From Nipponacmea schrenckii (taxonomy: Eukaryota > Mollusca > Gastropoda > Lottiidae): a stretch of DNA of 64,000 nucleotides. The number at the start of each line of letters is the position of its first letter. The stretch's first letter is position 1. The notes beneath the pieces are model-generated. The model ran no database searches. It had not been told where the DNA came from and saw only the letters and a list, made by a program, of their open reading frames with translations. The stretch lies in contig JAUJPP010000001.1 in NCBI GenBank assembly GCA_030562195.1, forward strand, positions 13,136,472 to 13,200,471. Direction: 5' to 3'. The translations under genes were made by a program, and so were the position numbers. Below, piece after piece: positions 10,025 through 63,509 of this stretch.

Positions 10025-11822
10025 TTATAATCGAAGGCGACTTGTATTTTCCCTTTGCTCGTTTCTTCCACATTGGACACAATGATTTCGGGAGAGCCCA
10101 TCAGCGTTTCTGTGTACGAAACCATGACGATGCTGTATTGTAAACTCATACCCAGCCAATATTTCCAACCATCTTGCGACCTGTCCTTCGGGATTCCTGA
10201 AATTCATCAACCAGGTTAAGGCGCCAAGGTCAGTTCTAACCAGAAATGGTCTCCCGTATAGATATGGTCGAAAATGTTTAATCATTTTAACAACTGCTAA
10301 CAATTCCCTTCTTGTGACACAATATTTTCTTTCGGCATTCGACAAACTCTTGCTAGCATAAACAATCACTCGCTCTTGATTATTGAAAATTTGAGAGAGT
10401 ACGCCTCCGATTCCATAGCCGCTAGCATCTGTGTATAGAATGAATGATGTAGAAGGATCAGGATAAGCCAATATTGGAGCCGTTATTAGTTTTGTTTTAA
10501 GAGAATTAAAGGCATCTTCTTGTTCTGCTTCCCAGTGATATGGTTGGTCTTTTTGTGTAAGTCTGTTTAGTGGTGAAGCTAATTTTGAAAATTGATGAAT
10601 AAATCTTCTATAGTATGAACATAAACCAAGAAAACTTTTTAGTTCGTGTAGATCTTTGGGTCTTTTACAATTCTTTACAACTACTATCTTCGCAGGGTCT
10701 GTTGATATTCCCTTTTCAGAAACTATGTGGCCCAAATATTGAACTTCCTTCTGGAACAGGAAACACTTCTTAGCCTTCAGTTTCAAACCAGCGGTTTTTA
10801 ATCTATTGAAAACTTGTGTCAAATCAAAAGGTTTTCGAAAACACTATTACATCATCCAAATATATGAGACATATCTCCCACTGTAGTCCAGCCAACACTC
10901 GTTCCATCAATCTTTCGAATGTGGATGGAGCATTACAAAGTCCGAATGGCATTACTTTGAATTGATATAAGCCTTGATAAGTCGTAAATGCTGTCTTGGC
11001 TACATCTTCAGGATCCATAGCCACCTGCCAATATCCAGCAGCCAAGTCGAGTGTAGAGAACCAGGATACTCCATGCAAGGCATCTAAAGTTTCATCTATG
11101 CGGGGAAGAGGATATACATCTTTTTCTGTAACGCTGTTCAGCTTCCTGTAATCAATACAAAACCGGGTAGAGCCATCTTTCTTGCGAACGAGGACTATTG
11201 GACTTGCCCATGGACTGCAAGACTCTTCGATTACATTTTGTTTTAACATTTTCTTAAGAGCATCTTCTACTTCCTTTTTCTGATGAAGAGGTACACGTCT
11301 CGGTCTTTGTTTAATTGGAAGGGCTGAGCCAGAATTTATTTTGTGCATCACTGCATTGGTCCTTCCTAGCTCGAAGTCATCTTTGGCAAAAGAAGCCTTA
11401 TAATCTATCATGAACTGTTTCAACTTTTGGACTTGGTTTTGATCCAGGTTTGTCTTGGACCTTTCAAACAGCTCATGGAGATGTTCAGGTAATTTTATCT
11501 TGTCTGACTGAATGGCGTCTTCATCTTTTATAACTTGGTCAATAAAGCAAAGTTTTCCTATATTACTAGATTTAAATATAGTTACTGGTTCAGTAGATAC
11601 ATTCATTATCCTGACAGGAACTGCTAAACAATGTGAAGTTATCAACCCATCTTTTTCAATAAGATGAGGATGTGGTTCGACCAGCGCTATACCTCCGTGT
11701 AGCTTGTTTCGCACCTCTTCATGAATTTTGTCCGAAATTATCATCTCAACACCAGCTGGAATAGTGATATTTCTTATTGATGTTACATAGCAAAGTTTTA
11801 ACACTTCTTCCAGATGTAGATC
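10025..11822 (-). pseudogene. pol: Gypsy pol: reverse transcriptase and RNase H
   Basis: The RT part (about 11820-10824) shows VRKKDGSTRFCIDYRKLN, LDLAAGYWQ, FGLCNAPSTF and the catalytic IYLDD. RNase H (about 10822-10025) follows with QYLGH, LYTDASGYGIGG (first Asp), RRELLAVV (Glu) and RTDLGALTWL, where the usual TDHxAL His is Leu. One extra T in a TTTT run near 10826 shifts the frame between the two. After NADGLSRNH only about 20 residues remain, and no HHCC/DDE integrase is present. As in active relatives the product would copy the RNA genome into DNA, but this copy cannot make an intact protein. Confidence 0.88.
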
Positions 11823-12922
11823 TTACTTCTTACCACACAGTTCCATCTCTTTTGAGGACAAGTCAAGCTGACAATTGTGCTTTTCCAGGAAATCCAGACC
11901 TAATATGCATTGAGGACCAATGTCGGCAACTACAACTTGATGGCTGCAGAAAACATCATCTATAATAATGTTCAGATCTGTTGCACCTTTGATATCAAGC
12001 TTTTTACCGTCTGCCTGGCACAAATCATGACCCAACTTCCACAAACGAGGCTTGTTTTGAAGTTTATCAAATACATCTGATGAAATTAATGTTAAGCTTG
12101 CTCCGGTGTCGATAAGACAGTAAATCTGTATACCTCCTATGCTGGTCAAAACGTGGAGTCCACATTCATTAGGTGAAGTGAAATGGTTTTCCAAGGGAGA
12201 TTTGGAATTGCTGTTTTTCCTCATGTTTCTAACTCCATCGGGCTTCTTTCTATCTGGCACCAGTTTTACTCTGCAGTTGTTACTAGTATGACCACCCTTC
12301 TTACATCTATAGCATACAACATTTGCCTTCTTATGCTTCTCTTCCATTTTTTCCAGCTTAATCTGTAATGTCTTCAATCCGTCACATAAACCTTCTATTT
12401 GCTTCATTAACTTTCTGTCTTCCATTAGTAATGAGCTTAATACTTGTTGAGCAGAACCCATTAAACTTCCTGACAGATGTAAACCTTGTTCCTCTCTTGT
12501 CCATTCATTAATCTGTATACAAGCCTGAAAGTGGGCTATATAATCCATTAAAGGAGTTGAACCATCGTACTTGCTGGCGGCTAAAATTGGTTTTCTGTGA
12601 TGGGACCTTGGCATTCCACCGAATCCTCCATAACTAGTGCGACCAAACCGTCCAGCATTCTCGCCATCATCGGGCAATGAGACAGACGAGAAATTCAACC
12701 GACGAGGTGGTATGTACTCCAGTACTCTTGGCCTTGCCCCTTGACTCTCTCGTTCTGTAACATTTTAGGAACGCCTTCAGCTTGCATCTCTCGACGTATT
12801 CTGGTTTGTTCTCTGGTGTTAACAGACGCAGAAAGTATATCTGCAAGGGTTTGCTTTCCCGGACCTGGTCTTTGGTCCTTCGGGTCTGTCGAATAAGGGG
12901 GTGTATCATCTGTACCAGACAT
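11823..12922 (-). pseudogene. gag: Gypsy gag, zinc knuckle and aspartic protease
   Basis: The first ATG on the minus strand is at 12922. After about 75 codons the frame shifts near 12700 and continues to 11823. It contains a gag-like core (DGSTPLMDYIAHFQ), a CCHC knuckle C-x2-C-x4-H-x4-C (CYRCKKGGHTSNNC, about 12300), and a retroviral-type protease with LIDTGASLTLIS (about 12110) and ILGLDFL (about 11890). Gag looks internally shortened between the core and the knuckle. It ends in TAA at 11823-11825, in the same frame as pol. That stop may be decay or a programmed readthrough signal; the nearby shifts favour decay. Confidence 0.85.
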
Positions 12923-17807: not shown

Positions 17808-19070
17808 TAATGTTTTTTTTTTTTTTTTTTTGGAATAGTTGCTGTCCTAAGGCAATGCTTGAATTTCGTTGCCCACTTTGGTTACTAGTGGATTGGGAGG
17901 GACATCATCATCAAAACTAAAGTGAAGACCATGTTAGCATTTTATGGGTTTAGTCTCTCTTTCAGTCGTCAATAAAATTATATTATATTCTTATTTAGGA
18001 TAGCTAACCAGGTAGGATAACAGATGCCCAATGGCATCTGTCAGAAATGATAAAGTCTTTATTGACTTAAAATTCATCAACCTCAACATTCTTTCAAATT
18101 TAACAATGTAAAAACAACAACAGATCTTATGGATGAAATTTGTCACATTGAATAAATCAAGAGCCATTCCTAATTAAACGAAATATTATCAATTTGACTA
18201 AACTTGACTAGGATTAAAATGTATAGTCATACACATGGGCAATAAAGAAGTTTCGGATTTCCGCCGCCATATTCTGTAGGTAGCAGCCTTCGATATTTTA
18301 ACTAATCAAAGCCATTAGATTACATTATAGTCTTTACAAATCTGGTATTATTCATTGAATATTATTCTTGAAGTAAGTGCGGCCCTACCCACATTCGTTT
18401 AGGGTATGTTATTGGTATTATTATTTCAATAAAATGAGACTTTTGATACCATGTATGCATTGTTTTGTCCCCATAAGCTAGACCATTTCCTTGTGTATTG
18501 GACCTTATTCTGATCCATGTAAAATAAAGAGTTTATCATTAATCTCATAAGAAATATATATACAAATAAATGGGCGACAAGTTTGATCTTACTGTATGTA
18601 ATACTGAACAACAACGATTTGACTTTATTAAAGATCTTTATTGATAATTTTTTTATATATATTTATTGTAATTTTCATAAAGCGCAGTATTCCTTTAAGT
18701 TAAAATAGCCAGTTTTAATGAACTGCAAAAGTGTTCGACATGACATAAATGTTGTGGCGCTCCACAATACAATGATAAGCTTAGACATTTTCTCCATCTC
18801 GTCATATCTCCGCTTGTCGACTTTGACTTATGGATTGAGAATGAATTAGTGCATGGTCGCTAAAAGCAATACAGGATATTTTTTAGCAAATAATACATAT
18901 GAACAACATACTTTTTAGAAAACATAATATAAATAAATAACATATTTAGCAAAGATTTACATTTACATTTATGTATACTGTGGCCCCAATTTTTTTAAAA
19001 TAAGAAGATCTGGATTAGTGTATTTATTCATAATATCTGCCTAGGTCAACGTATCTGAAAAAGAAACATT
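17808..19070. other. Intergenic, no gene seen
   Basis: Poly(T) at about 17812-17831, then AT-rich unique-looking sequence. No splice-bounded exon of the gene A cysteine-module type was found here on the minus strand. Confidence 0.5.
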
Positions 19071-19222: not shown

Positions 19223-19422
19223 AAATACGAACTCGAAAATTCTTAAAGATCATAGTTCAACATATATTTGCAGGTTGATTTGGGCTGTTTATATGTAAAT
19301 AGTCTTCAGAAGAAACAGACCTGTAAGAAATTCGCATTAGTCTTAATAATAGTGTCCCAAACTAGGAACTTCATCCCTGTTTTTTTTTATTATATGTTAA
19401 CTCTCTTCCCAAATATTGTGTA

Positions 19423-19730
19423 ACCTACATGGAAATTCAAAATAGTGCAAATAGAAGCTATTAATGAACCTGTATCGAAATTAAAATAGGGCAAATAGGA
19501 ACTACTAATGAACCTGTATGGAAATCAAAATAGTGCAAATAGAAACTATTAATGAACCTGTATGAAAATTAAAATAAGGCAAATAGAAACTATTAATGAA
19601 CCTGTATGGAAATTAAAATAGTGCAAATAGAAACTATTAATGAACCTGCATGAAAATTAATATAGTGCAAATAAAAACTATTAATGAACCTGCATGGAAA
19701 TCAAAATAGTGCAAATAGAAACTATTAATG
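19423..19730. repeat. 44-bp minisatellite, 7 copies
   Basis: Seven consecutive units of the form ACCTGTATGGAAAT...AAACTATTAATGA. It lies just downstream of the last visible micro-exon of gene A. Confidence 0.9.
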
Positions 19731-19853: not shown

Positions 19854-21657
19854 CTAGTGAATCACCAACTGATTCAACATTACGACGTCTACGACCACCT
19901 CCATGACTAGGCCTACCTCCACAACAATTTCCTTTTACAGCCACTGAAAATCAATAACATAAGACAAAACGTTAACCTAGCTCAAATTGTTTATGAACTG
20001 TAGAATCAATACCTGGGTAACAGTGGCCATAATTTCTTCTTATAAATTGATACATTTACAGTAGGCTAAACGAGATCTGATTTTGATGTCAACTCTGATA
20101 TACCTTAATGCCATTAAACTATGTGCATTGTTTGATTGAAACATACCTTGCGCCCGTTCTTCGAGATCATCAACGGAGTCAACATTTCGACGGCGGCGAC
20201 CAGTAGGAGGGGCATCATATACTTTAACAGCTACTTGACCAAATAACAACGAAATACATATTGTTAGGTTTATCTCATAGTATTATGAAATGATGGGTCG
20301 GTGGGCGACCGTGGTATATTTTATAAATTGATAAAGCCGGTAATTAAAGCACGGCAGCTATAAATGATTCTAATAGGTTTACATGAATCAATCCCTCCCT
20401 CCCCCGAAATATAAAGATTCTACTGCATATTGCCTCTCTTCGGTATGTACACCTGGCAAAAACTAGATTAATACATACCTTGTTCATTTTCTTCATCAAC
20501 GGAGTCAACATTACGACGTCGGCGACCAGCAGGAGGGGCATCATATACTTGAACAGCTACTTAACCAAATAACAACGAAATACATATTGTTAGGTTTATC
20601 TCATTGTATTATGAAATGACGGGTCGGTGGGCGACCGTGGTATATTTTATAAATTGATAAAGCCGGTAATTAAAGCACGGCAGCTATTAATGAATCCAAT
20701 ATGTATACATGAATCAATCCCTCCCTTCCCCGAAATATAAAGATTCTACTGCATATTGCATCTCATCGGTATTTACACCTGGCAAAGTAAACGTTTTGAA
20801 ACAATGTACGTAACTAGATTAATAGAACATACCTTGTTCATTTTCTTTATCAACAGAGTCAACATTACGACGGCGACGACCAGGAGGACCAGGAGGACCA
20901 CTTACTAAACCAGAAAACAACAAAAGACAAAACGTTAGCTTTATCTCGTATTTTATAGGAATTGGAGGATCAATGGATGACCGCGTTTTCTAAATTTTTG
21001 ATAAGTTGATCAACATTAAAACACAATAGCTATGAATATGCAAAAAATCATAAATTTATTTTGCAGTTAAAGTAGAAGATGCCGAATGAATGATTAAGAT
21101 GAAAATAGCAGCCTTAAGTGACCGACATACAAAAACTAGAGAGCACATCTTTAATATTTTACCCGTTTTGATATCACCTCTGGTGTACCTCAATGCCATT
21201 AAACTACGTGCAGTGTTTGATTGAAGCATACCTTGTTCATTTTCTTCATCAACGGAGTCAACATTACGACGTCTGCGACCACCTCTACCACCATATGCCT
21301 TAAGAGCCACTGCATCAACCAACAATAAAGGCAAAATGTTAATTAAGCTCAAATTTTATATGAACTGGGGAATCAATGCCTGAGCGTAAATCAACGAAAA
21401 TAAACATAACATTAACATGATAACACCATTTCTTTGAACATAAAAACTCAATTAGATTTTACTGTTAAGGTTAAAGATACCGAATGAATGATTAAAATGA
21501 TGCAAATAAAATGACCCACATACAAAAACTAGAGTGCATATCTTTTTTTTCCCGTTTTCATATATACAGCTGAACATGCACGAACTATTTGCATGGTTTA
21601 ATTGAAACATACCTTGTGCTTTTTCTTCGAGATCATCAACGGAGTCAACATTGCGAT
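19854..21657 (-). repeat. Gene A micro-exon module array, ~290-400 bp period
   Basis: Exon starts are spaced 293, 332, 354, 399 and 381 bp, and the introns also align. For example GGGTCGGTGGGCGACCGTGG recurs after 20290 and 20625, and the TGATTGAAACATACCTTG-type border recurs. The whole exon-plus-intron module was therefore duplicated. Exon lengths of 90, 87, 81, 72, 78 and 45 bp are all multiples of three. The 45-bp module (21613-21657) has lost its RRRR half and has a weak acceptor. Confidence 0.85.
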
Positions 21658-21936
21658 CTCATTGTTCATGTGATATAGTGGATCTATGGACGATTGTGTT
21701 ATATTTTATAAAATGATAAAAATAAACAGGTGCTAGTGCACATTGCCTATCTTTGGCATTTACACCTTACATAGTAATGCTCTAAAGCAATGTGCGTGGC
21801 TTAATCGAAACTTACCTTGTGCTTCATGAACGGAGTCAACTTTTCGACGTTGAAGACCGGGTTGACCACTCGGACCAACATTTGCGTTAACAACAACTAA
21901 AATAACCAACAGCAAATAACAAATTATAAGCTTCAT
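19854..21936 (-). CDS. Gene A: secreted precursor built from tandem micro-exons (3' end not found)
   Basis: Coding exons on the minus strand: 21936-21816 (start ATG), optional 21657-21613, then 21309-21232, 20904-20833, 20559-20479, 20233-20147 and 19943-19854. Each internal exon begins and ends in phase 1 with AG/GT borders, so any can be skipped or added in frame. The first exon encodes an 18-residue signal peptide (MKLIICYLLLVILVVVNA) and a short unit ending QRRKVDSVHEAQ. Every full internal exon encodes a variable Gly/Pro or VAVKVYDAPP stretch, then RRRR, then N-V-[DE]-S-V and an acidic tail. At least 176 residues are visible, 191 with the optional exon. RRRR is a good furin-type cleavage site, so this may be a peptide precursor; the basic runs could instead bind heparin. 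The last exon ends in an open donor with no terminal exon found. No known family is recognised. Confidence 0.7.
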
Positions 21937-21975
21937 ATCGCCTGCGGATTTGAATTTTGGCTTTGAGTTTAGTGT

Positions 21976-37792: not shown

Positions 37793-38038
37793 TGGAAGCC
37801 GATAGCGGCCATCCGCTTTTTTCAATGTCTCAAAGTCGCCAAGTCGAAAAGTCGCCGGAAATTCGAAATGGCGACTTGGCGACCTTGAAATCCGGCGACT
37901 TGTCGAGTTGGCGACTGTTGGTGGATTTCAAAGTCGCCAAGTCGCCAACTCGACAAGTCGCCGGATTTCAAAGTCGCCAACTCGACAAGCCGCCAAGTCG
38001 CCAAGTCACGGTTAACAAATGGCCGCTATCGGCTTCCA
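37793..38038. mobile_element. TGGAAGCC MITE, short complete copy (246 bp)
   Basis: TA on both sides, TGGAAGCCGATAGCGGCCAT at the left and ATGGCCGCTATCGGCTTCCA at the right. It lies directly before the THAP segment and probably removed or displaced its start. Confidence 0.85.
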
Positions 38039-38041
38039 TAT

Positions 38042-38320
38042 ATTAATCATGTGTGTGCCGCAGTCAACTGTTCTAAATCAAGAGAGCGAGATACTGATCT
38101 TTCTTTTTTCAAGTTTCCTTTGAAGGACGTAGAAAGGTGCAAAAAATGGATTGTTAATTTGCGAAGAAATGAACTGAATTCGAGTGATGTTCAATGTGAT
38201 CGAAACCTTTTGCTATGCGAGGATCATTTTGAAGCTTCTCAATTTATGTGTCCAGACGGTAAAGGTATTAGGAAAAGAGGAAAAAATTACTATGCTATTC
38301 TCAGGTATAAATATATGTAG
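38042..38320 (+). pseudogene. THAP-domain exon
   Basis: The frame reads CAAVNCSKS...FFKFPLKD.ERCKKWIVNLRR...LLCEDHFEASQFM, a C2CH THAP zinc finger (C-x4-C, then C-x2-H) with the conserved Pro and Trp. THAP domains bind DNA in P-element-type transposases and host factors. No ATG is in a good position; the frame opens at the MITE border. ATTCTCAG|GTATAA near 38306 is a good donor. The frame otherwise stops at TAG 38318-38320. Confidence 0.7.
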
Positions 38321-50686: not shown

Positions 50687-52582
50687 ATGAAGGTTACAAT
50701 TTTTGTTTTGATGTTAGTTAGTGCAGTGGCTGTTAACGCACAAGGTAATAATAGTGGTGATCGGCGTGGTCGCTCCATTGATGATCGCAAAGAACAGACA
50801 CCAGGTAATGCTTCAATCAAATCAACCTTTTTGTGATTAATATTTGGAGGAACTTTAAGATATAAAAGAGGTATGTTTCAAGCAAATCTAGGGTTTTTAA
50901 AACGTTTGATATTGTCAACTGGTGTAAATACCCCTAGACAATATAATTAAAGAGAAAAATCTATATTTTTTGTATATATATCGGGAACCGTTCAAAGTTA
51001 TTCCTATAATAATAAATGTATAAATAAATGTTCCTATAAGTTAAATTATTTCTAACTTTATTGCAAAATATACAATATTAAGGTCATATTCCATGACTTG
51101 AGATCACTTTTGGCCTTCTGTTGTCGTGTTCTAATATTTATAAAAAATATTATCATTATGCAAATATGGACAACCCATAGTCTGGGTGAGTTTGTTCTCA
51201 TAGTACAGATATACTTTTAACACCTCTATTTAACCATAAACAAGATCGTTTTCGAAAGTTGGCACTGGCATTGTAAAAATCAAAGAAATGACGGTGTAAG
51301 TAATGGAGTATTATGGTTTAATTTAGAAAAAGGTCACTTCCCGTCTTTTCTAAACTATAATTACCGGTACATACAAAACTACGTATGGTTCCTACACGGA
51401 ATTCGAAAATGATATAATGCTTCATATTCCATAACTTGACTACACTTTTGGCCTTCTGTTATCATGTTCGAATATTTATAAAAAGAAATATTATCAAATT
51501 GTTGTAGCTTGCAAATATGGAAAACCCATAGTTGGTGAATGCAATGGAGAAGAGTATACTTTTGTATTTGAAAGTGACGATTGTCCAACCCGTGAAAGAA
51601 CTGGTAAATGTATGGTCAATTCTGAGGGAGATATGGTTCCTGTTGCCAGTGTTTTCAAGAGTCTGGGTGAGTTTGTTCTCATAGTACAGATATACTTTTA
51701 ACACCTCTATTTAACCATAAACAAGATCGTTTTCGAAAGTTGACAGTGGCAGTGTAAAAAGCAAAGAAAGGACGGTGTAAGTAGTGGAGTATTATGGTTT
51801 AATTTAGAAAGGTACCTTCCCGTCCTTTTTAAATTATAATTACCGGTACATACAAAACTACGTATGGTTCCTACACGGCACTCGGAAATGATATAATGCT
51901 TTATTTTTATACCTATACCACTTTTAGTCACTATGTTTTGAAAATTATGTAAAGAAACATGATGACATAAGAATATTTTATGACAAAAGAGCATCTTATC
52001 TATTGACCAACGTTCATGAGAACTATTTTATGATAACTTTTATCGGCACTCAATTTTAAATTTAACGTAAAAAAAAATTTCTATCGACATAAACATATTT
52101 TAAGATGTTACTATAATCTTTTAATAGATTTAACATGTAAATAATTGGTCAAATCGATTGTTGATACCTATTGTTATTGTGTACTTTCAGAATGCTTCTA
52201 CACCCTTCCTGAAGTGTCAGGAGACTGTGACCCGGAAACAAATACTTTGATACTTTCCCATACTCTGTTGACTAAAGATGTAGAGGGATGCGACCAAACA
52301 ATCGAGTCGACCGTTCAATGTTCAGAAAACAACGATGGGAAACTTGTTCCAAAACTTGGTGAAATGAGTCTTTTTCCTAGGCGAACAGAATTCAATTGTC
52401 TTAATTCAGAAGAACGTAGGGGTCCACAGAGTAGACGGAGCGAACACTTTGGTGTAAAACATGGTGAAAACAGAAATAGGGGGCGCAATGGAAGAGGAAA
52501 CGTTGGAAGACGTTATGGCAAAGGAAGATTACCAAATGGAGGTAGACGAGGAGGAGTCCGAGGTAGAAGAGATAATGAATAA
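50687..52582 (+). CDS. Gene B: secreted two-module cysteine protein, pleiotrophin/midkine-like
   Basis: Coding exons 50687-50804, 51508-51666 and 52191-52582 give 222 residues; all internal borders are phase 1. Residues 1-18 are a signal peptide (MKVTIFVLMLVSAVAVNA). Next is a basic segment, GDRRGRSIDDRKEQTP, like the gene A unit. Module 1 (about 41-80) has CKY..xxVGEC and spacing C-x9-C-x13-C-x8-C. Module 2 (about 94-137) has C-x10-C-x20-C-x9-C with GDCDPETNT and CDQTIESTVQC. Each module is followed by N-x2-G-x-[ML]-VP. The last ~60 residues are Arg/Gly-rich. In pleiotrophin/midkine the C-terminal domain is C-x9-C-x21-C-x9-C with CKY, GEC and C..T[IV]...C, so module 2 fits well, but the conserved Trp before Gly is absent. 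The basic tail would suit heparin or glycan binding. Function is inference. Confidence 0.72.
51160..51186 (+). pseudogene. Relic of a duplicated gene B cysteine exon
   Basis: GCAAATATGGACAACCCATAG followed by TCTGG and GTGAGT is the start of exon 51508-51666 joined to its end, with about 130 bp deleted between AGT microhomologies. The flanking intron also repeats (about 51082-51419 versus 51420-51902). The acceptor AG is lost. Confidence 0.75.
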
Positions 52583-54500: not shown

Positions 54501-54565
54501 ATACATTGACCAAACCAAAGCGAATTTGCATGATGTATTTGAATTAATAAACTAATACCATACAA
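54501..54565 (+). other. Gene B terminal untranslated exon
   Basis: Preceded by TTTTTTTTTCAG. It reads ATACATTGACCAAACC... with AATAAA at 54546-54551. It is conserved with 63838-63905 (gene C) and 13493-13563. Confidence 0.5.
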
Positions 54566-57500
54566 TTATCCTTTTGTTAAACTCAAAATTTCAAAACATA
54601 ATTGCTCTGCCATTTTAGGCCTTGTCCATTAAGATTTTGCTTATATGTTCCTTCTTTTGTCACTTTCGATTTCATCGCCCTATAAAATCTCATATCATAT
54701 CTTCACGATGGCATAGCGGGATATATGGATAGTCGTCTGGCAGCTTCTTGTTACTTCGTTGTGTCTTCACGTGCCGAGAATTTCCCAGTGGCAAGGGAGG
54801 ATAGTACGAATTAATGAGCAAGATTTACGAAGGGTAAAAAAGACACATGTGGTCACAAACGACAGAATTAACTTTTTCATTTTAATCAAAAACTTTAATT
54901 TTCTCCAAGGTGATAATTGAAAAGTAGGACGTTAAACTCCATTCATTTCATTTATTTTGCTAATTATTATCACCTTGGTTAAAATTAATTTCGAATTTAA
55001 AATTTCCTAGGTGAAAATTGGGTGATAAGTCCTGTAGGTAAAAATTCAGTGAAAATGTTGTTTTCAAACTAAATATTTCAATTCAAAACTAAAGGAGTTA
55101 TCACCTTATTTTCAATTTTTTAAATAAAATACCATAGTATTATCACATTCAAATAATGTTGCAAATAATTATCAACTAGGTGAAAAATAAATTTTTTAAT
55201 CAAAAAGTACAGGAATTATCTAGGTAAGAATTCAGGTTTTTAATTCAATATTAAAAATTCATAATAAAAAGTTGGCGTATTTGAGACAAAGTAGACGCAT
55301 AATAAATAACCTTATAATAATATAGACTCTTTATTTTACATGGGTCAGAATTAGGCGCAATACACAAGGACATGGTCCTGTCTAACATTCAACCCACGGG
55401 ACAATACAATGGATTATTGTATAATAATATTCATGATAACAAATTTAATATAAATAACAAATAACATGGAAAACATCAATACGTCCTTCGTCAATTTTTT
55501 TGGACACAAGATGACTGAAGATGTTCTCACGATTGGATCGATATTTACGACCGTGTAAACATCTGATGCTTATTTTCTTGATCACTATTATGACCATATA
55601 AGATTTGTTTAATATTTTATCATGAGCATAGTAACTTATTTTTGGCAAGAGCATATAAATTAATTCCTGAAATTGGTTGTATCCTATATTATTATTTCGT
55701 TTATAAATTATCCAATTCACAAAGATGGCAGGAACTTAAAAATACTTATCAGTTTTTAGGCTTTATCAGATTCAGATTGTCATTAAAATATAAATATTGT
55801 AAAGGGCCTGGACTGTCTATTAACATGGTATTTGTACATTAATCATTCTATTTTGTCATTATGTATTTTTGGTGTGCGCGAATTGTTGGATTACCGGACC
55901 ACAAATAACCTATTTTTTAGTCTTGACATATCAAGTAAACCGGTATTTTATTAGTGAAGTTTATTAGTATTTGTCAGTTTTATCTGATATATTTCTAAAT
56001 TTTGGGAACCATAAGAGTCTCTTTACTCCTTTGACATTTATCATTCATGAGCCTATATTCCTATGGTTTCCATCTGTTATCCAAGTAGATTTTTGTGACA
56101 TAAGTGCTTTGATTGATTTATACTGTAAATTGACATCCCCATTTCATATTGTATATTTCAGTCAATCGTTTTTTCGTTTACTACAATCATAAGATGTAAA
56201 GTCATTCAACTGTTTATTCATTCATCCTTCATGTTTTGCTTTTGATAATATATACATATAAAACTAGATTCTTTGTTCTTTATGACCATGCCTACAGCAC
56301 AAATGAGCGCATTATTGTATGGAACTCCTGACCCGCTGGCAGCCACAATTATCACTAGCAGGGAGTGTAAAAATAAATTTTGTTCTCCATGGCCTATTGC
56401 ATACTAAAAACATGTCCTAATGTTTAGGGATGCAAGTCCGCGTCCATCAGTACATTTCTCTCTATAAAAATAGATGTGTAATGTTGAAACTAAGTCAAAA
56501 TTACGGCGTTCGTTGCATTTCAACAGATGCATAAATTATGCAGCACATGATGGACCCGAAACATCGGCCTTTACTCCAATCTCTGATTGCTAAATTTTGA
56601 CATTGCCGGATGGTGATTGGCACAGTGGAAAGTTTTAGGTCACAGTGTATTTAATAATCCAACAGCCTCCGACTCATTTGGTTACATCCGTAAATTTCCG
56701 TTATTGTAGTTAAGCCTCTGGCTTAAATAGCGTAGAGATTTGCTTTAAAGTTTGGTGATAGGTTTAGTACCTTATAACTGCCTGATTATCCTCTATCGGG
56801 GTCCATTCACTATAAAATAATGGGTGATAACTCATTTGTTTAACATTACTTCTTATGAAAAATATTTGGACAATCGCTACTTTTACAGACGGCTGACAAT
56901 GTTGATATTTTTTCGAAGAAAATGCTTTGTGTCGGCTTTGACGGCTTAAAGTATTGAAAAATGTATCTCTGTACAGATATACTGGATATGGAAAGAGTTT
57001 GATTTTCCAATTATTGCCTTGGAATTTAGAACCAGATTCAACACCAACGATCGACAACAACAAAGGGAACATAAAAAATATCAAAATAAAATAAATATTT
57101 TATCTTTAAATGGTTGAGTATTTGTTTCACGCATCTTTAGCAAGAAATCCAAACGCTTTTTTCGATCACTACAACAATAAACATTCTGTTTCACCCATGC
57201 AATGGGCTCTAACAGGCAGCATAAACCATAACACAGAGATGACACAATAAAGTATGTTTATTAAAATGCCCACTGTAAGTATTTGTGTAACCCATGGTAA
57301 AAAGCTAAAAATACACATAAATGAATTATAAGAAACAAATCGTCGGTCTCCTGGAAGGACCTCGTAAGTCGACTTAAGGGAAATTATTTTTTTTAAATTT
57401 ATATTCCTTAGGCAATTACCCACCAGTTGGTATAAACCTCAAGAGTCAATGTCATTTACTTTTTTCACAAACAATTCTAAAATAAACCTATAAACCAAAT

Positions 57501-57930
57501 TGTGTAACTCAAAACTCACAAATTAACTTATGAGTTGTTCATTTGGAAATTATTATCAGTATTGATAGAATAAAACAGGTAAGTTGAGTTACGAGGTTTT
57601 CTTTTTTTAGAATTGTTGACAATTGTTTTAAAATAGCTTGATTTATGAGTGATGCAATAAGATGTACACAGCATGGTAACAATGGTATTATGGTTATGGT
57701 ATCTATTTACTAAACACAAGTTGACAGAAAGGTAGGTTTAAGTTTTGTTCTAGACTGTCAAGAACTACCTTGGATACTTCGACATGGTCTAAGTGTCATA
57801 CTGCATAGAAGTGATGCAATGAAGTTGAGGTTGTCATAATAGACTTGCTTGCTATATTTGGCTTACAACAAACAACCATCATTCTTTTGAATCAGCATTA
57901 ACATCCTTTTTATTATCTAATTCCAGAATT
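54566..57930. other. Intergenic, repeats only
   Basis: SINE-like fragments at about 54700-54840 and 54915-54950 (tail GTAGGACGTTAAACTCCATTC). A minus-strand retroposon tail at 55310-55410. Open frames at 55445-55720 (minus) and 55642-55842 (plus) have no family I recognise. A repeat at 56480-56690 is shared with 49850-50040. Bases 57340-57372 share CTTACGAGGTC...CCAGGAGACCGACGA with 61349-61376 in inverted orientation. Confidence 0.45.
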
Positions 57931-58290
57931 ATGAATGTTCCCAAGATGTTAAGCAGGGGAGAACTTATGGTTAAGTTAGCAAATAAAGATCATACGTCAG
58001 AATCAATCAAAAAGAAGAGAATAGGAAATTCGGTAGAAAATGGAATAGGAATAAAAGTAAATAGAATAGGAAATTCGGTAGAAGATAGAATAGGACCAAA
58101 AGAAAAGAGAATAGGAAATTCGGTGGAAGATAGAATAGGACCAAAAGAAAAGAGAATAGGAAATTCGGTAGAAGATAGAATAGGACCAAAAGAAAAGAGA
58201 ATAGGAAATTCGGTAGAAGATAGAATATGACCAAAAGAAAAGAGAATAGGAAATTCGGTAGAAGATAGAATAGGACCAAAAGAAAAGAGA
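57931..58290 (+). repeat. 45-bp repeat encoding RIGNSVEDRIGPKEK
   Basis: Following TCTAATTCCAG, an ATG-led frame (57931-58230) reads MNVPKMLSRGELMVKLANK and then tandem 15-residue units with a 45-bp DNA period. A TGA replaces GGA at 58228-58230, while the DNA repeat continues to about 58310 and grades into AGAAGAAAAGA-rich text to 58900. It could be an exon with a coding repeat or only a minisatellite. The splice-like acceptor and multiple-of-three period favour a former coding origin. Confidence 0.45.
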
Positions 58291-58930
58291 ATGGGAAATT
58301 TCTAGAAGATAGAATGGGACCAAAAGAAAAGAGAATGGAAATTTGGAGAAAATGGAATGGGACCAAAAGAAAAAGAATGGAAATTTAAAGAAGATAGAAT
58401 AGAACCAGAAAAGAGAATTGGAGAAATGGAAGACAAATTAGAACCAGAAGAAATGAAATGGAGACAAATTAGAACCAGAAGAAAAGAAATTGGAGACAAA
58501 TTAGACCAGAAGAAAAGAAAATTTGGGAAAAGGGCAAATTAGAACCAGAAGAAAAGAGAATTGGAGAAAGGAAGACAAATTAGAACCAGAAGAAAAAAAT
58601 TGGAGAAATAAAAGACAAATTAGAACCAGAAGAAAAAGAAATGGAGAAATAAAAAAGAAAATTAAACCCAAAAAAAGAGAATTGGACAAATTAGAACCAG
58701 AAGAAAAGATAATCGGAGGGAAATTGAACCAAAAGAAAAGAGAATTGGAGACAAATTGAACCAAAGAAAAGAGAATTTGGGAAAATGGAACAAATTGAAC
58801 CAATAAAATGAAATTGGAAATTTTTGAAATAAGGGGAACAAGATAAAAAAAATTATTTTGGAATTTAAATTTAAAAAAAATCGAAAATAAAGAAAAAAAT
58901 ATAAATGACAAAAGAGATGGAAAGTGTGTT
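58291..58930. repeat. Purine-rich degenerate repeat
   Basis: Decaying units of AACCAGAAGAAAAGAAATTGGAGA. Lys/Glu open frames on the plus strand and Phe/Leu/Ser frames on the minus strand are artefacts. Confidence 0.7.
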
Positions 58931-61993: not shown

Positions 61994-63509
61994 ATGAGAA
62001 AATTACAATTTGTTTTTGATTTGGGGTGAGTCTTTAAGACAAAACGGATCATGTGACGTTCGTCCCTTGATGTGAAAAACGAAAAAAGGGGGAATTTTAA
62101 ATTTTCTCTTTTGTGTTTGTTATCGCACGCAAGTAAGATTTTAGGATCAATTTACGTGGTGTTTCATAATATCGCAAGAAACAAAGAGGTAAAGTTCAAT
62201 CAAAATCCATTGTTTAAAACATAATATTATTTTTTGATTAGTATTTAGGGTTTTTTTGATAAAAAATTTTTAACAAACCCAACTTTTTTAAAAGTTTAAT
62301 TGTCAATGGTGAAAACCCCGCAAAATTTTAAAGAGAAAAAAATTTTATTTTTTATTGTTCGGGAACCGTTCAAATTATTCCTATAAAATAATATAAAATA
62401 AATGTTCCTAAATTTGTTCTTTAAATTTCAACTTTTTCAAAACCAACATTAAGGTATATTAATCTTGGAAATTTTCCTTCTTTATGTGTTTAAAATTTTA
62501 AAAATTTTTTAAAATAATATTATCAAATTTTTAGTTGAAATATGGGGAAAATATTTAATGAAGGGAAAGTTCTTTCATTTTAAATATATTTCCCCAAGTG
62601 AAAGAATGGAAATGTATGGGCAATTTGGGGTAAAATGGTTCCGTAAGGTTTTTTAGGATTCTATTTGTTCGATAGACAAATAGCTTTAAATTTTTTAACC
62701 ATAAACAAGTCTTTTGAAAAATTGACAGTGGCTTAAAAAACAAAAAAGGACTGTGAGTGGGTATTATGGTTAAAGAAAAAGGTACTTGTCCTTTTTGTAT
62801 AATTACATAAAATACGTATGTTTCCCCAGGAATCGGAAAGATAAAGCTTTATTTTTAACATATATACCCTATTAGTTTTTTTGAAAATTTTAAAAAAAAT
62901 AAAAGAATATTTTAGCAAAAAGCCCTTTTTTAAACCTTTGATAATTTCATGGGAATAGTAGAAATTTTATTAAAATAATAATGTATAATCGGGCTCAATT
63001 TTAAATTTAATTAAAAAAAAAATTTCTATAATAAAAAATTTTAAATTTTACATCATTTTTTAAGGATTTAACTGAAATAATTGGCTCGATTGTTATATAT
63101 TTTATTTTATTTCAAATGTTTCTCATTCCATAGTGGGGCCTGGAAGAAACAAAAAAAATTGGTACTTTCCCCAAAAATTTTTTGGACTAAAGATGTCAAT
63201 CGAGAAAAATCCGTAACCGTTCAATGTAAAGAAAAAAACTGGAAACTTATTCCAAAACCTTCAAATTGACGCAGTTTTTTTCCTAGGAGACCAAAAGTTG
63301 ATTATATAAATTCAGAAAAAGCTGAGGGTATACCACAAAGACAAGGGAGACGCTTCAAGGGAAAAAATAGTGGAGGTAGAAACAGTGACGAGGGGCTGAT
63401 CGGAAGACAATTGAATGAAAGGAATGGTGCAGGAAAACGTCGGGACAAAGGAAACAGAAGAAATATTGGTGATGGAAGACGAGTCCGAGGTGGAAGAAAT
63501 AATGAATAA
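61994..63509 (+). pseudogene. Gene C: degraded paralogue of gene B
   Basis: The ATG at 61994 aligns with the gene B start, but the frame stops at codon 12 (TGA). The cysteine exon (about 62534-62660) and the start of the last exon (about 63130-63290) align with gene B yet have lost many bases and all clear cysteine spacing. From about 63300 the frame is clean again and encodes an Arg/Gly-rich tail (RRFKGKNSGGRN, GRRVRGGRNNE) ending at TAA 63507-63509. Identity with B is high in the promoter and 3' end. Damage is concentrated at 62000-63295 and is rich in homopolymers, so consensus error is as likely as true decay. Confidence 0.6.

Follow-up and report, generated by a model that had tools for sequence, protein, structure and literature searches.

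A family of gastropod genes for predicted secreted precursors whose small unit exons are most likely copies of the signal exon

In several animal groups, secreted-peptide genes are known to contain rows of small symmetric exons. The gain of many same-phase exons by a single gene is, to our knowledge, seldom visible.

In Xenopus laevis, the magainin and caerulein genes carry tandem peptide-encoding exons within one precursor gene, with RXXR-type cut sites; in the parts of that paper drawn on here, unequal crossing-over is named as one way in which the pipid peptide exons multiply, and related Silurana genes are described as clustered (PMC3731216). The schistosome MEGs, in the sections cited, have a signal peptide and mostly very small symmetrical exons, encode secreted or membrane-anchored products, and have a faster-changing mature part (PMC4350168). 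The mussel myticalins and modiocalins are described as a signal peptide, a variable segment, a dibasic site that often follows Gly, and an anionic extension, with a phase-1 intron in the anionic extension and another intron before the ATG; in the myticalins the mature peptide precedes the dibasic site and the anionic tail (PMC5577615, PMC12294457, gene descriptions therein). For mussel mCRP-I, the excerpted account places all modules in one last exon, and its authors deem exon duplication implausible (PMC10138031).

Here a gene of related build, gene A, is described from the minus strand of a 64,000-nucleotide stretch of the Nipponacmea schrenckii genome (the window), together with its relatives A2, C, D and E. 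Like the pipid genes, gene A has repeated peptide-coding exons, RXXR sites and a place in a gene cluster, a likeness of architecture only; sequence and animal group differ, and the repeated pipid exons, in the parts of the paper drawn on, are almost undiverged and are not described as signal-exon copies (PMC3731216). With the MEGs the gene A family shares, by description alone, a signal peptide and small symmetrical exons (57–96 nt and phase 1-1 in the gene models), whereas the MEGs are reported in that source to be seemingly restricted to platyhelminths and to vary in splicing (PMC4350168). Myticalins and modiocalins, likened to gene A by description and not by sequence, have in the cited descriptions one unit per gene and three exons, whereas in gene A six live coding exons are followed by a terminal one, all joined in phase 1; gene C, with two coding exons plus the terminal exon, comes nearest to the myticalin shape. 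The mCRP-I genes resemble the gene A family as clustered secreted-peptide genes of variable module number, with many pseudogenes in mCRP-I as excerpted (PMC10138031), and differ in their knottin cysteine array, which is not seen in gene A.

Exon structure of gene A

The original prediction was of a signal-peptide exon followed by five full phase 1-1 micro-exons and one short one. Coordinates, GT-AG borders and donor scores agree with this for the signal exon and the five full exons (Table 1). All five unit exons have GT-AG borders, phase 1-1 and lengths that are multiples of three, and all five read, essentially as had been proposed, through a variable linker, GRRRR, NV[DE]SV and a tail. The tails are acidic, as was claimed, with the exception of E7, whose GDSL tail is hardly so. 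It had been missed that exon 1 holds a unit of its own, QRRKVDSVHEAQ.

On a rough scale (a consensus matrix, computed for gene A only), the donors of the six live exons lie at the 98.3–99.9 percentile among 3500 minus-strand GT sites, and the five unit acceptors at the 74–93 percentile among 3072 minus-strand AG sites. The signal peptide has a hydropathy of 3.5 over 12 residues; among the 545 open ATG frames of the window, five reach 2.9. The putative acceptor ahead of the gene A ATG recurs before the ATG of A2, and in C and E it takes the form atcatttcag/AATAGA.

Table 1. Features of the window, with positions counted from its first nucleotide
Feature	Position	Strand	Description
Probable 5' untranslated stretch	21937..21975	-	after acceptor atttcagACACTAAAC; inferred, acceptor at 73 percentile
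Exon 1	21816..21936	-	ATG, signal peptide MKLIICYLLLVILVVVNA, then NVGPSGQPGLQRRKVDSVHEAQ; phase-1 donor gtaagt
Relic unit E2 (short micro-exon of the original prediction)	21613..21657	-	RNVDSVDDLEEKAQ; retains its donor but has lost RRR and a usable acceptor
Intron end before E3	21310..21350 (approximate)	-	weaker signal-code match; 7/200 shuffles, 5/3957
Unit exon E3	21232..21309	-	78 nt; VALKAYGGRGG-RRRR-NVDSVDEENEQ
Intron end before E4	20906..20949	-	ACGAGATAAAGCTAAC...GGTTTA, putative homologue of ATG and signal code; ATG = ATA; score 30, 0/3957
Unit exon E4	20833..20904	-	72 nt; VSGPPGPPG-RRRR-NVDSVDKENEQ
Intron end before E5	20557..20602 (approximate)	-	putative former signal code; 0/3957
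Unit exon E5	20479..20556	-	78 nt; AVQVYDAPPAG-RRRR-NVDSVDEENEQ
Intron end before E6	20231..20276 (approximate)	-	putative former signal code; 0/3957
Unit exon E6	20147..20230	-	84 nt; AVKVYDAPPTG-RRRR-NVDSVDDLEERAQ
Recent tandem duplication, period 326 bp	20167..20786	-	exon core to exon core; RRRR-to-RRRR unit and its intron
Intron end before E7	19944..19990 (approximate)	-	weaker signal-code match; 1/200 shuffles, 3/3957
Unit exon E7	19854..19943	-	90 nt; VAVKGNCCGGRPSHGGG-RRRR-NVESVGDSL
44-bp minisatellite	19422..19730	-	within last intron of gene A; present in A2 too
Terminal exon (likely)	19010..19054	-	ttttcagATACGTTGACCTAGG, DTLT-stop; TAG 19043-19041; AATAAA from 19028; 3' end approximate
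Gene B	50687..52582	+	signal exon 50687-50804; Cys-rich exons 51510ff, 52190-52582; basic C-terminus
Family terminal-exon copy behind gene B	54501..54570 (approximate)	+	ttttttcagATACATTGACC

The sixth, short micro-exon, proposed at 21657-21613, does not stand. Its acceptor is weak (11.6 percentile among minus-strand AG sites), RRR is missing, and the intron ahead of it aligns with the E5–E6 intron at 78% over 50 nt before the alignment stops, so E2 is read as a truncated relic, left when a unit lost its 5' part by deletion.

The last exon of gene A is likely the one that begins at 19054, outside the range given in the original prediction. This start is preferred because C, D and E have homologous exons. 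The family terminal exon consists of four residues, a stop and AATAAA; its peptide is DTLT in A and A2, DTLH in D, VTFH in C and DALH in E, the last of these missed by the pattern search and recovered by alignment. The pattern also matched the plus strand at C1:13294593 (C1 being the contig of the window), which was taken as chance. Between A and A2 the exon is 100% identical in 50-nt windows, against a mean of 90.6%, a level also reached by two other non-coding A/A2 stretches, so that identity alone does not single out 19054. Other endings were set aside in its favour: read-through after E7, an acceptor at 19689 in the 44-bp minisatellite (GSLIVFICTILIFMQVH-stop), and acceptors at 19303 and 19320 in a block about 98% identical to A2.

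That block (19336-19230, minus strand, about 98% A/A2 identity) has good acceptors at 19320 and 19303 and is a possible alternative last exon or regulatory stretch. Beyond the last exon, at 18626-18547 (minus strand), 50-nt windows are 100% identical between A and A2.

In an 11-codon core compared over the five live gene A units (E1 and E2 being excluded from the seven exon candidates), pS was 0.27 and pN 0.05, a ratio of 0.18. The synonymous share of change was 0.68 versus a shuffled mean of 0.27, with 36 of 5000 column shuffles as high; the other five reading frames gave shares of 0 to 0.51. Across 18 of the 22 exons from the five genes the share was 0.58 versus 0.25 after shuffling (15 of 1000 shuffles as high), for cores that were chosen by motif and are biased to conservation; exon 1 of genes A, C, D and E fell outside this motif. 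Judged by this synonymous-dominated core and by similarly built relatives at other places in the genome, the exon row is more than a chance arrangement.

The clustered family and gene B

The four relatives of gene A lie within about 105 kb. When the assembly (399.4 Mb in 1093 contigs, possibly incomplete) was searched with the gene A precursor, 18 matches reached E <= 10. C1 holds sixteen of these, between 13054261 and 13158407: 12 have E <= 0.075, and the other four, which fall in genes C, D, E and A2, have E values of 0.66–1.91. The remaining two are on C3 (E = 6.27). Because this query found C, D and E only at E 0.66–1.91, distant family members elsewhere would be missed. A2, which has the same build as gene A, runs downwards from C1:13090734 within the surrounding 318 kb that were compared, and tblastn in the same region also picks out the signal exons and units of C, D and E, plus gene B.

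According to the models so obtained, gene A belongs to a clustered family with a shared signal exon, a variable number of phase 1-1 units and a tiny last exon. Each of the five models (A, A2, C, D, E) gives on splicing an open frame with a single stop, in the terminal exon, once the units judged broken are omitted (A.E2, A2.u5, A2.u9, D.u4, D.u5, E.u3); the A2 model would stop early with u9 included. The 17 unit exons retained measure 57–96 nt, all multiples of three, with broken units left uncounted; A2.u5, which is without an AG acceptor, is counted among the 17. Because six units spread over four of the five genes look broken (D.u4, D.u5 and E.u3 as judged by eye), the family may be decaying.

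Exon 1 of gene A and that of A2 are 80.6% identical over 36 residues. The two genes differ in unit number, and the first five units of A2 alternate between NPPG and CC types. Exon 1 has no RRR in D and E. Where RRR occurs in C, E, D.u2 and D.u3, Arg is absent at P4, so the strict furin motif is limited to the units of A and A2 and the broken D.u4. The Gly that stands before the Arg run in all five gene A units is not kept in C, D and E.

No homologue of the gene A precursor was found at E <= 10 among about 5.8 billion predicted proteins (6866 candidates). Against Pfam, the gene A query, taken without its DTLT end, gave no match above the curated cut-off, the one match having E = 0.49 and 11.3 bits against 23.8. 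The one PDB match, to ribosomal protein eL14 (E = 0.025), was taken as chance with basic sequence.

The 5' stretch and signal exon of gene B resemble those of the family (blastn E 1.6e-12 versus D), and gene B is a possible case of exon exchange. Its Cys-rich exons matched Pfam PTN_MK_C (PF01091) at E = 0.0019 and 18.9 bits, below the curated cut-off of 25.3, and no PDB match was found for them up to E = 1; compared with the midkine/pleiotrophin C-domain, the spacing of Cys and of CDxxT is similar, with the score under the cut-off. Within the 318 kb, tblastn found no midkine/pleiotrophin-like exon in gene A, and the Cys-rich exons of gene B were rejected as its last exons. The tblastn matches of these exons lie in gene B, at window 51159 (a broken second copy of the gene B middle exon), at window 63159 and in three weak downstream stretches.

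The stretch at 63159-63506 (plus strand) is a partial, stop-bearing relative of the gene B last exon, 38% identical over 120 columns. The three weak matches to that exon, at C1:13310616-13321352 (E 0.11–0.64, 110–121 kb past the window end), have midkine-like Cys spacing by eye. Elsewhere in the window, a 45-bp repeat at 58008-58422 (plus strand) reads KRIGNSVEDRIGPKE in the open frame 57829-58230, for which there was no Pfam match; retrotransposon-like frames lie at 10025-12764 (minus strand), with Pfam RT_RNaseH matches in the tested piece 10028-10843; and a THAP-domain frame (E = 5.7e-14) at 37889-38320 (plus strand) starts in short AAGTCGCC-type repeats.

Predicted processing and function

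The predicted precursor of gene A has 178 residues, and the original claim of a secreted, modular precursor is borne out as a prediction by its signal peptide and symmetric exons. A run of RRRR downstream of a signal peptide is a typical convertase motif, and all five live units carry it there as an R-X-[KR]-R convertase-type site; the precursor would enter the secretory pathway and then be cut after RRR(R). Since the units have RRRR as their polybasic site and exon 1 has RRK, the predicted cut would free the acidic head of one exon together with the linker of the next. The predicted pieces are 13–33 residues long and in the majority run across an exon junction (e.g. NVDSVDEENEQVSGPPGPPG, NVDSVDKENEQAVQVYDAPPAG). 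Release of short NVDSVD peptides, which had been proposed, is not what the predicted cuts give, and free NVDSVD peptides do not follow because there is no dibasic site between a tail and the next linker. The first predicted piece would be basic and the others acidic, beginning NV[DE]SV; all the later pieces except the last would end in a variable Gly/Pro/Cys-rich stretch, and would be amidated there if the Gly ahead of RRRR is used. The head is conserved between units and the linker is variable.

A neurohormone appears less likely than a defence- or mucus-type secreted peptide: the genes lie in a cluster, their number of units is unstable, units decay and linkers change. Clustering, unstable unit number and unit decay are found in known defence-peptide families. 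A neuropeptide or peptide-hormone precursor, with NVDSV as its receptor-binding head, would fit the conserved sequence repeated between polybasic sites and the Gly before RRRR in gene A. It is nevertheless quite improbable: neuropeptide genes do not usually form clustered families whose members decay and whose unit number is unstable, conservation lies at the N-terminus and variation at the end that would be amidated, and no paper on NVDSVD or RRRRNV was found in the open-access literature searched.

A possible but doubtful alternative is that the linker before G-RRRR is the active peptide, a hypervariable effector, with NVDSV and the acidic tail as conserved propeptide, an order like that of the myticalins. 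The myticalin segment order and phase-1 intron, as described in the cited sources (PMC5577615, PMC12294457), favour it, as does the Gly before RRRR in gene A. Unit linkers also vary in length and composition while signal and core are largely conserved, and the comparison of C.u2 with E.u4 shows 14 differences among 41 linker bases, compared with 14 among 152 in the flanks and core (Fisher p = 0.0002). In this C/E linker, however, synonymous and replacement changes are equally frequent (0.36 and 0.32), so that selection accounts for it no better than a mosaic of older sequence does. Positive selection on linkers was considered and is not shown; in the pooled comparison the dN/dS-like ratio of 1.45 for linkers versus 0.38 for core and tail comes from few changes in four pairs and is not significant (Fisher p = 0.21). 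Some linkers have four or five residues (VNPPG, APPGF), which is short for an effector, and the linker is not parted from the preceding acidic tail by a convertase site. By hand count, moreover, family linkers have charges of about -2 to +2, with no Arg repeats, whereas the myticalin mature peptide is described in those sources as cationic, Arg-rich and mostly Pro-rich.

The regular alternation of RRRR and acidic stretches, the Gly/Pro-rich linkers (e.g. GPPGPPG) and the conservation of Arg runs despite codon changes would also suit a protein secreted whole, whose Arg and acidic blocks act as mucus, adhesive or matrix by condensing or binding polyanions. Such a product is unlikely, since the models of C, D and E have only two Arg blocks yet keep RRR and an NV/YV/YI head, and since the established convertase role of RRRR behind a signal peptide speaks for cutting. 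The locus might, at the other extreme, be dying, a duplication hotspot with little or no product in which conserved cores reflect gene conversion and not selection. The broken-looking units, six in four of five genes, and the mosaic copies are what would be expected of it, but this too is improbable, given that the five models are still open and have the terminal exon in common, that core change is mostly synonymous, which conversion alone does not yield, and that the live donors of gene A, the only ones scored, are strong. A secreted precursor cut after RRR(R) is the preferred reading.

Origin and multiplication of the unit exons

Both tblastn and blastn matched the signal exon to intron sequence ahead of unit exons. 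The 60 nt before each unit acceptor were compared with the ATG and signal code of six signal exons. Relative to Markov shuffles, 11 of 19 units stood at <=2/200 and 16 of 19 at <=10/200; those that failed were A2.u3 (62 of 200), A2.u5 (57) and D.u2 (22), and the start of D.u4 was misplaced by three bases in this test. A second comparison, which omitted A2.u5 and D.u4, used 3957 random AG-ending 60-mers from the 318 kb; 13 of 17 intron ends, including all five of gene A, stood at <=5, the weaker ones being A2.u3 (38), D.u2 (125), D.u3 (22) and E.u2 (60). The intron end before E4 (ACGAGATAAAGCTAAC...GGTTTAG) is identical at 37 of 44 positions to exon 1 of gene E (ATGAAGCTAAC...GGTTTAA). The former ATG reads ATA in A.E4, A.E5, A.E6, A2.u4, A2.u6, D.u3 and E.u2; C.u2 retains an ATG at the former start, with the frame closed.

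Exon 1 of A and A2, and in part that of C, consists of signal, linker, Arg run and NVDSV-like head. Most likely, the unit exons are copies of exon 1 in which the signal code has turned into a polypyrimidine tract and acceptor. We infer the direction from exon 1 to unit; the reverse would require a signal peptide arising from an intron end. Because some acceptors match weakly, this reading stands firmly for gene A and for much of A2 but not for every unit, and because tandem copies are not independent, the unit counts overstate the number of separate events.

Tandem copying of exon 1 would, on this account, have founded the row of units. In each copy the T-rich signal code would have become a polypyrimidine tract and an AG acceptor in the old signal frame, and once the acceptor was gained only linker, RRRR, NVDSV and tail would have remained exonic. 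The phase of the units follows because the acceptor AG falls inside the old signal frame; since the phase-1 donor of exon 1 was kept and the new acceptor was in phase 1, each copy would immediately have been an in-frame cassette.

Whole RRRR-to-RRRR units would afterwards be added or removed as exon cores exchanged unequally. The stretch from the E4 tail through the intron to the E5 linker and that from the E5 tail to the E6 linker form a 326-bp repeat, 94–95% identical, and because its borders fall within the exon core, the DNA unit exchanged would run from RRRR to RRRR. Exon E6 is mosaic, E5-like in its 5' half and like relic E2 in its tail. Growth by unequal exchange with duplication of the introns had been suggested originally, and is supported by this period and identity, by the borders in the core and by the difference in unit number between A and A2. 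The stretch of DNA last duplicated coincides with the peptide unit between two cut sites. Taken as one account, exon 1 copying and unequal exchange, with a secreted precursor cut after RRR(R), is moderately probable.

Two A2 units suggest a further, more speculative possibility, which we hold to be rather doubtful: cassette making by copying of the signal exon may be self-feeding, since T-rich signal code would easily turn into a polypyrimidine tract and acceptor, with the stretches at A2.u2 and A2.u8 serving as signal peptide or as intron according to the choice of start, and precursor length varying with it. A2.u2 retains its ATG, with the frame open through the acceptor (MKLTFCILLFGGV then VNPPGRRRRNVDSV / VNPPGRRRRNVDSVDE), and A2.u8 is open from an ATG one codon further on. 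If this is true, one gene would yield precursors of differing length via start choice.

No paper combining intronization, exon duplication and a signal peptide was found in the open-access literature searched. If the unit exons did arise from exon 1, gene A would offer a visible route by which in-frame rows of small exons can arise, one that is readable, and may be tested in other peptide families, because a likeness to the old signal code persists in the intron ends.
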